Origin: Mariannaea sp. PMI_226
Taxonomy: Eukaryota; Ascomycota; Sordariomycetes; Hypocreales; Nectriaceae
DNA length: 64,000 bases
Assembly (NCBI GenBank): GCA_024336345.1
Contig: JANFOG010000011.1
Coordinates: forward strand, 62,001 to 126,000
Direction: 5' to 3'
In this document: one piece after another, positions 11,567-14,208 of the stretch
Numbering within the stretch: the first letter of the stretch is position 1
Layout of the letters: every line of letters begins with the position of its first letter
The notes under the pieces: generated by a model
What the model was told of the DNA's origin: nothing
Databases searched by the model: none
What the model saw: only the letters and a program-made list of their open reading frames with translations
Program-made: the position numbers and the translations under genes

Positions 11567-12568
11567 ATGGCTCCTAAGATCGCTGTTGTCTACGTATGTA
11601 CTCCAATCCTTTTCCAATGGCTCTTTCGCCCCGGCCGAGTCTTCGACCCCCGAGTTTTTACAACTGTTATTACTATTTGCCATCTTCACTTGTCGAGCTT
11701 GTGTTGGTTATCAAGTAGCATAACAATGGAGCTCAACTCGATTACCAACTCGACTTCTTCCTACTATTCACGCTCGCATTCCATATCTCTCCACACACCA
11801 CGAACCCTTCCCTACCTCCTCCTATACAAACACATAGACACACACTTATACCCGACCTGTACCTGGTTCAAATATCTACAATACCCATAACGCTGACCAC
11901 CATTTCTTTCACAGTACTCTATGTACGGCCACATTGGCCAGCTCGCCCAGGCTGAGAAGGCCGGTGCTGAGAAGACCGGTGCTACCGTCGACATCTACCA
12001 GCTTCCCGAGACCCTCCCCGAGGAGGTTCTCGGCAAGATGTACGCCCCCCCCAAGGATGCCAGCATCCCCGTCCTCGAGGATCCCGCCACCCTTGAGGCC
12101 TACGATGGTGTCATCTTCGGTATCCCCACCCGTTTCGGAAACTTCCCTGTCCAGTATAAGGTATGTGATGAAAAAAAAAAAAACTCCTTTTGATATTCTG
12201 GAGGAAGAATCGATGTATTGACTTACCTACGATAGGCTTTCTGGGACAAGACCTCCGGCCAGTGGGCCTCCGGTGCCTTCTATGGCAAGAAGGCCGGTCT
12301 CTTCATCTCTACCGGCACCATGGGTGGTGGTCAGGAGACTACCGCCTACTCTGCCATGTCCACCCTCGTCCACCACGGTTTCCAGTTCGTTCCCCTGGGT
12401 TACGGCAAGACCTTCGCTCAGCTCACCAACATGACTGAGATCCACGGTGGCAGCCCCTGGGGTGCCGGTACCTTTGCTGGCCCCGACGGCTCCCGCCAGC
12501 CCACCGCTCTCGAGCTCGAGATCGCCACCATCCAGGGTGAGGAGTTCGCCAAGACCTTTGGTAACTGA
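11567..12568 (+). CDS. NAD(P)H:quinone oxidoreductase, WrbA/Pst2 flavodoxin-like family
   Basis: 201 residues from three exons (11567-11593, 11915-12160, 12236-12568). Intron 1 is unusually long (321 nt); intron 2 is 75 nt. The family binds FMN and reduces quinones by two electrons, protecting membranes from oxidative damage; yeast Pst2, Rfs1 and Ycp4 are found at plasma-membrane eisosomes. Seen: MAPKIAVVYYSMYGHI at the N-terminus is the FMN phosphate-binding loop, followed by GIPTRFGNFP and STGTMGGGQETT, both hallmark flavin-contact segments of WrbA. Length to the stop matches WrbA and Pst2 (about 200). Codon use is strongly C-ending, suggesting high expression. The stop is TGA followed by CTA, and the frame continues open for 52 codons to a CaaX box (separate entry). 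Family assignment is firm; physiological substrate is inferred. Confidence 0.95.
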
Positions 12569-12727
12569 CTACATGGCAAGAAAGTTGAGCCTGCTGTCGT
12601 TGCCCAGCCGGCACAGAAGCAGCAGACTGTTGTGAAGACTGAGAAGAACAGAACCGAGTCTCCCAAAGAGCTCAAGGAGGTCAAGGAGGGTCCTTGTGGA
12701 TTGCCAGCGAAGTGTGTTGTCCAATAG
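12569..12727 (+). other. In-frame 3' extension of the flavodoxin-fold gene, ending in a CaaX box (candidate stop readthrough)
   Basis: Directly after the TGA at 12566-12568 the same frame runs for 52 sense codons to a TAG at 12725-12727. The predicted extension is hydrophilic and Lys/Glu/Gln-rich, with one Cys at extension position 43 and the C-terminus CVVQ. This fits a CaaX prenylation box, and Gln in the last place favours farnesyl. The stop context TGA-CTA is the motif known to promote readthrough in fungi and animals. Codons look coding-like. Alternatives: a relic tail killed by a recent stop, or a 147-nt alternative intron from GTAACT (12561) to CCAG at 12707, which would also rejoin the CVVQ end. 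The reading is inference from sequence only. Confidence 0.55.
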
Positions 12728-13196: not shown

Positions 13197-14208
13197 TCAT
13201 TGTTTGACAAGATTCGTTGTCGACTCGTGAGGGTTGTCCTGGAGCTCTCCATCATAAACTCGTGTCTGCTCATCCTCCACAGGTGCAGCGACCTGAATCT
13301 CGCCTCGGTAGATTTCGATGACGGATACCAAGGGCATGATGAGCAGAAGCATTGAGAGTAGCTGGCCAAAGCTCCACGTCTTTTCACCCTCATCCTTGAG
13401 CTTGATGGAAGGGTGACCGAAGGCCTGAGAGAGGAGGATGATACGGATGGCGGCGCCAATGGCAATGGCGGTCATCAGCGCTAGGCCGATGATTTGGATG
13501 AGCTTGTAGAACTTTTGACTACGGTTATGAAGATACCAAGTGGCGAGACCGAAAATCACCACGTTTCCAGCAATGACGGCGATGGTACCAACATAAGACA
13601 GGCCCGCTGTGGCAGGAGGTCCGTCGCCGTCCACCACCCACACACACGCAACCGGCAGTGTCTTGTTGTCCAGGCCTTTGGACACGGCTTGAAGCACGAA
13701 TACACCCGAGATACACGATAGAGCCAGGTTAACGAACATAAGGAACTGGCGCATCCATCTTAAAACCCAGTCCCGGCGGTAGTCGTGCACAAGGGCGAGC
13801 AAGGTAGCGTTGTGGGTGGCCATGGAGAGTAGTGAGAGCATCCAAATGAGGAAAAAGTGGTAAGGGACCAGCGAGTTTATCTTGGCGAGGCCAACGCTCT
13901 GGATACCGATGCCCTGCAGGATTTGCGAGTCGGAGTAGGAGTTGAGAAGTTTGCGACGGATGACGGAGTTGCGGCCGCGAAACTCGCCAAAAATGACGGA
14001 GGAAGATAGAGCAATGGCAAGGCCGGCGGTGATGATGAATGAAAGCAGGATCTGTCATGCCAAAAGTGTTTAGTACAGTATCATGGGAATTTGCTGCTGC
14101 GTTTACAACTTTGCAAGGGGGACTTACACCAGCACCAGCAACGCCTGCATCACTGGCGGCAGCGGCATCGGCATTGCGAGAGCAGTTGGCCGCATCAATG
14201 AAGGCCAT
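13197..14208 (-). CDS. Polytopic integral membrane protein, fungal-specific, function unknown
   Basis: 311 residues from exon 1 (14208-14128) and exon 2 (14051-13197), joined across a 76-nt intron in phase 0. Seen: a short N-terminus with several Asp/Ala, then about six hydrophobic segments. The first is ILLSFIITAGLAIALSSSV; the others include YHFFLIWMLSLLSM, QFLMFVNLALSCI, TIAVIAGNVVIFGLATW, IIGLALMTAIAIGAAI and LLSMLLLIMPLVSVIEIY. A charged loop FGEFRGRNSVIRRK follows the first. The C-terminal tail is acidic and polar, probably cytosolic. I recognise no transporter or receptor signature. An in-frame ATG at 14271 would add 21 residues; I chose 14208 because the extension lies in C/T-poor leader sequence. 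It converges on the flavodoxin-fold gene. Confidence 0.8.

Follow-up and report, generated by a model that had tools for sequence, protein, structure and literature searches.

A single gene of Mariannaea sp. PMI_226 very probably gives two forms of one quinone reductase, a soluble enzyme and a form with a CaaX tail, judging from its sequence and those of its relatives. The gene lies in a 64,000-nucleotide stretch of DNA (the window). The initial annotation had proposed that one gene makes both a soluble and an anchored enzyme through leakage at its stop codon. A conserved CaaX-tailed second form encoded in the same gene has stood up to analysis, but readthrough as a general route has not. For Mariannaea itself, splicing is somewhat favoured as the route to the tailed form.

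The gene body is, on curated family cut-offs, a type IV NAD(P)H:quinone oxidoreductase of the WrbA/Pst2 type. The spliced product of its three exons (201 aa) is 100% identical to P0001, the record found for Mariannaea sp. PMI_226, which is the short form. P0001 exceeds the curated cut-offs of both TIGR01755 (203.5 bits, cut-off 132.5) and NF002999 (210.9 bits, cut-off 141), and the best solved-structure match of the body is 5mp4 (Protoplast secreted protein 2; residues 3-199). NAD(P)H:quinone reductase activity with FMN would be expected from family membership. The body and the frame that follows it are laid out as follows.

11567..11593, plus strand: exon 1 (MAPKIAVVY); spliced product matches P0001
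11915..12160, plus strand: exon 2, WrbA/Pst2-like quinone reductase; spliced product matches P0001
12236..12568, plus strand: exon 3 of the short form, last codons GGT AAC TGA, with TGA at 12566-12568
12566..12571, plus strand: TGA (12566-12568) and CTA (12569-12571), a stop context tested as leaky elsewhere (passages of PMC4207609)
12569..12727, plus strand: tail frame with a charged linker, the conserved KELKEVKEGPCGLPAKCVVQ and a TAG stop (12725-12727), drawn from sequence, homology and codon score
12695..12697, plus strand: Cys codon 10 residues from the end, a candidate palmitoylation site by position, present in 48 tailed homologues
12713..12724, plus strand: CaaX box CVVQ, in frame with the body, behind the TGA

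The elements of the initial annotation that were checked are confirmed in the sequence: TGA then CTA at the gene end, a 52-codon open frame after the TGA (12569-12724), a Cys 10 residues from its end and a CVVQ-stop terminus. The last residues are CGLPAKCVVQ, the terminus GPCGLPAKCVVQ is followed by TAG, and the linker includes KVEPAVVAQPAQKQQ. The CVVQ box may be of the 'farnesyl type', the label given to it in that annotation.

Codon use in the tail is coding-like, as had been claimed. The tail frame scores 0.421 bits/codon (exon 3, 0.504), against -0.196 and -0.104 for the two remaining plus-strand frames and no more than 0.116 on the minus strand; directly downstream of the tail the same frame scores -0.036. 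The linker alone, at 0.537 bits/codon, ranks among the highest 0.6% of open 81-mers taken from beyond the training frames. Against P0011, one of the tailed homologues, the tail scores 53.9 bits (59% across 46 aa; E 7e-13 with the database size nominally set at 100,000 letters), compared with 32.3 bits for the best of 100 shuffled tails, which bears out the view that it is more than chance. Two of the 100 shuffles gave a match below E 1e-3, the reversed tail gave 21.2 bits, and one of five other frames matched (19.2 bits). Given this homology, the conservation of the tail's end and its coding-like codon use, chance and decay appear to be poor explanations.

Tailed homologues span fungi from Fusarium and Neonectria to Penicillium and Alternaria. 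Three homology searches, with the best 120 of each retained, provided 299 homologues including P0001, 290 of which are shorter than 300 aa. These comprise 239 untailed proteins of < 230 aa, 48 ending in CGLPxKC plus three residues, and 3 others. Conservation of the tail through its C-x-x-x end had been proposed as a check, and it is found: Cys is fourth from the end in 48 of the 290, with CGLPxKC there in every one of the 48. CVVQ ends 18 of these tails, and the remaining 30 have other C-x-x-Q/L/M boxes. Fusarium proteins P0030, P0034 and P0045 have a second type of tail, ending in GGACGLPTKCVVQ and with another junction, and apparently belong to a separate paralogue. P0114 (Colletotrichum orchidophilum), which belongs to the 3 others, has a broken tail, GPCGLPNNN..., that lacks a CaaX box, perhaps through a gene-model error. 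P0002-P0010 are longer homologues (400-442 aa); the part of the P0004 sequence that was printed has two flavodoxin-like bodies in tandem, and one member of P0003 carries a name from a eukaryotic transcriptome (MMETSP0689).

Records of the tailed form are unevenly distributed by source, which was read by hand from the tables as either contig collection or NCBI annotation. The 96 contig-only proteins fetched (jgi, lgn, ena, merc) include one tailed protein, P0019, and 95 untailed ones; the remaining 47 tailed proteins come from NCBI annotation. Either the tailed form is rare among contig-derived records or it is a minor product, and the finding of only 1 in 96 lowers confidence in dual output.

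The way in which relatives join body to tail seems to involve splicing out of the stop, not reading through it, because the tailed protein has other residues in place of the short form's final ones and does not run on past them. P0019 (tailed, 250 aa, from a JGI contig of 1,058 nt) and P0111 (short, 205 aa, Podospora aff. communis) share 204 residues without a difference, after which P0111 has A-stop and P0019 has G-I-A-N-G. Similarly, P0040 (tailed, C. fructicola) and P0143 (short, Colletotrichum sp. SAR 10_99) match at 201 of 202 residues, past which P0143 reads V-G-stop and P0040 D-G-A-K. In neither of these closest-body pairs does the tailed protein contain the whole short form. P0037 (F. 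culmorum) and P0121 (JGI), 98.9% identical over 185 residues, diverge after Gln-Gly, and two weaker pairs, P0105/P0190 (96.2%) and P0027/P0149 (93.0%), diverge near the short-form end. P0019 probably derives from cDNA, since its full body is intronless on a short contig, whereas the Mariannaea gene has two introns there.

Two places of exit from the body can be recognized. A simple pattern sorts the 48 tailed proteins into 39 that retain the body's final half-helix and 9 that depart at Gln-Gly, the position that holds a donor (12537) in the window. Among short forms, 53 of 239 end in His-Pro or His-Gln, all from the Alternaria search; such protein ends would fit a stop inside a GTAA donor. The use of one gene for both a soluble and a CaaX-tailed enzyme, through retention or removal of a stop-bearing intron, looks to be old in Pezizomycotina on these protein comparisons. 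Scans for orthologous fungal DNA gave 29 pattern matches in viral_contigs, none a relative, and in genome_contigs the best 80 of 562 relatives were all prokaryotic by title and none fungal; these loci were left out of the analysis.

In Mariannaea, removal of the sequence between any of 14 donor-acceptor pairs, 40-250 nt apart, would take out the TGA and leave the tail in frame. Four of these share an acceptor end at 12584 and the branch site CTGAC and keep the linker; three of the four begin deep in the body (12447, 12462 and 12468), and only 12537-12584 is short. Two stretches are relevant.

12537..12584, plus strand: candidate 48-nt optional intron, donor G/GTGAGG in the conserved Gln-Gly, acceptor GAAAG; keeps the frame
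12561..12584, plus strand: stretch matching by position the junction that many relatives have at the short-form C-terminus, as deduced from protein ends (G/GTAACT ... AAAG); 24 nt, contains TGA-CTA

Removal of 12537-12584 would give a 238-aa tailed form (...IATIQ-VEPAVV...KCVVQ). The branch site lies at 12565-12569, with the branch A at 12568, the A of the TGA, 16 nt before the acceptor end. Among frame-keeping candidates of 42-90 nt that span the TGA, it alone passes a donor/branch/AG test, whose donor threshold (0.7 bits) was fixed after donor 12537 had been seen; the test is passed by 2% of 4000 random positions and by 1 of 37 stops of mechanically called frames of at least 150 aa. Its length is in the range given for 2022 Fusarium introns, 42-529 nt (passages of PMC5677156). 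Its sites are weak, however. Donor 12537 scores 0.72 bits (92nd percentile of GTs in the window), compared with 4.2 and 6.8 bits for the body introns. The acceptor is in the rare RAG/Y class, which makes up 2.2% of Fusarium introns in the same passages, and a search over the TGA restricted to YAG acceptors found nothing. A nearer AG at 12580 would lead to a dead frame (193 aa, ending IATIQES), and removal of the 48 nt would also delete the half-helix that most tailed relatives retain.

The shorter stretch, with G/GTAACT at 12561 only 24 nt from the in-frame acceptor, is likely too short to splice alone; it is below the range of those Fusarium introns (PMC5677156, passages). Within it, 12561-12580 comprises 20 nt with a donor-like GT, the branch-like CTGAC and an AG, resembling an intron with its central part deleted.

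Stop-codon readthrough, in which ribosomes would pass TGA-CTA and go on to translate the 52-codon tail, is the main alternative in Mariannaea, and can be put forward tentatively. It is kept in consideration because TGA-CTA has been tested as leaky, UGA CUA being sufficient for readthrough in Ustilago according to passages of PMC4207609, and because the splice sites of 12537-12584 are weak. As in genes with UGA-CUA readthrough, TGA CTA stands exactly at the stop and is followed by an unbroken in-frame extension under coding constraint; TGA-CTA occurs at 0 of 37 stops of mechanically called frames of at least 150 aa in the window. The local intron signals are poor, and the relatives' junction site has just 24 nt here. 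Nevertheless, the coincidence of TGA-CTA with the stop is smaller than apparent, because the same letters make up CTGAC, a good branch site that accounts in part for the leaky context. In addition, the base after CTA is C and not the favourable G (PMC4207609, passages). As a general mechanism, readthrough is not supported by the closest relative pairs, in which the short form's final residues are absent from the tailed form.

Splicing and readthrough might also have succeeded one another. An optional stop-holding intron, proposed for Pezizomycotina at large, could have shrunk in Mariannaea to an unspliceable 24 nt and been replaced by TGA-CTA readthrough, a sequence of events that we regard as rather doubtful. 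A change of route between splicing and readthrough would not be strange, because fungi use both for peroxisomal isoforms of glycolytic enzymes, as described in passages of PMC4207609. Among the titles and abstract openings of the matches listed, none gave an earlier case of readthrough to a CaaX box or a printed account of this switch, an absence that is not proof of novelty.

It is improbable that the tailed form was lost in Mariannaea, leaving the tail as decaying 3' untranslated sequence. That the species record P0001 is the short form and that the intron looks degenerate would fit such a loss, but the tail retains its frame, codon bias, both cysteines and CaaX box. Moreover, identity over the last 20 aa is 0.682 for the window tail, compared with 0.524 in 642 body-matched pairs, in a sample where Fusarium-like tails abound, to the advantage of the window. 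Among 49 tailed sequences the window has the most divergent body (rank 49 of 49), although its tail ranks 8 by mean identity over the last 20 aa and 13 over 46 residues, ranks that the same excess of Fusarium-like tails favours. Such comparisons suggest no sign of relaxed constraint or decay in the window tail.

A longer intron from donor 12561, ending at 12668 (108 nt) or at 12707 (147 nt) and giving a tailed form that lacks the linker, is very improbable: both versions are in frame and end in KCVVQ, and the 108-nt one retains ELKEVKEGPCGLPAKCVVQ, but both are disfavoured because the linker that the 147-nt intron named in the initial annotation would likewise delete scores as coding, while the donor GTAACT scores -0.61 bits with a C at +5 (1% in Fusarium; PMC5677156, passages) and no branch-like site lies in the range tested.

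In the preferred model, a short intron holding the TGA would be kept or removed, so that one gene gives soluble and membrane-anchored forms. Relatives have proteins of both kinds whose bodies are identical or almost so. With the intron kept, translation would end at the TGA at 12566 and yield the 201-aa soluble enzyme. With the intron removed (in Mariannaea probably 12537-12584, 48 nt), the frame would join the linker and end in CVVQ. A prenyltransferase would then modify CVVQ, and palmitate is predicted on the Cys six residues upstream; the Mariannaea genome has matches, at family level, to prenyltransferase families PF00432 and PF01239. The anchored form would reduce quinones at the membrane, as proposed for Candida eisosome proteins. 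Lipidation, membrane location and a lipid-protecting role are suggested by the CaaX box, by Ycp4 (passages of PMC4556627) and by an eisosome review (passages of PMC5753163). The choice between soluble and anchored forms may be regulated.

The closest known system is Ycp4 of C. albicans, which belongs to the same enzyme family and has an extension of ~90 aa ending in a CAAX box that is likely lipid modified (PMC4556627, passages); Candida Ycp4 is also listed as an eisosome protein (PMC5753163, passages). The separate, tailed and probably lipid-modified Ycp4 of yeast mentioned in the initial annotation agrees with the C. albicans account. As in Ycp4, the Mariannaea extension finishes in a CaaX box, in frame but behind a TGA. 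However, Candida has a separate gene beside Pst1-3, whereas Mariannaea has one gene with body, stop and 52-codon tail. An A. brassicicola eisosome paper describes one Pst2 and one Ycp4 homologue, as two genes, and is silent on CaaX in the passages available (PMC6916069). With Pst2/WrbA the Mariannaea body shares matches to TIGR01755 and the 5mp4 chain, but the aligned structure chains end at about the end of the body and no CaaX tail is seen in them.

A further likeness is to fungal cryptic peroxisomal isoforms, for which PMC4207609 cites Freitag 2012. In these a cytosolic enzyme similarly gains an optional C-terminal address by splicing or UGA-CUA readthrough (PMC4207609, passages), but the address there is a peroxisomal PTS1 and in Mariannaea a CaaX box. 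In human OAS1, p46 is one of several isoforms of an alternatively spliced gene and is membrane-anchored by C-terminal CaaX prenylation (passages of PMC13372824). OAS1 differs in being an animal immune sensor; no sequence relation is claimed, and the comparison covers the likeness of outcome. Arabidopsis G6PD5 was considered as a precedent for a spliced-in CaaX box and rejected, as splicing there alters the N-terminus and the CaaX protein is PGL2 (PMC9478949, passages).

No second tailed gene was found in the Mariannaea genome, a search with the tail returning only the window's own place. The genome also has a paralogue of the body.

Contig 24, about 985-2004: paralogue sharing 67% identity with residues 38-198 of the 201-aa product

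This paralogue ends in KTALKHFG-TAA, no tail was found behind it, and on its sequence it looks like a soluble-only copy. Within the window, 13200-14054 on the minus strand is an open frame of 285 codons with several hydrophobic stretches and no Pfam match.

Where Candida has a separate gene for a CaaX-tailed quinone reductase (PMC4556627, passages), in many filamentous ascomycetes a single gene perhaps provides for the anchor as an option. Because the Mariannaea record shows the short form only, the anchored form can escape notice, and it may be overlooked too in the family of the minor allergen Alt a 7, namesake of many homologue records. The Mariannaea gene is possibly a case of readthrough having replaced splicing for the same product; if so, it would be a readthrough isoform addressed by a lipid anchor. 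The system lends itself to a simple test of the way in which quinone reduction is brought to membranes in cells.
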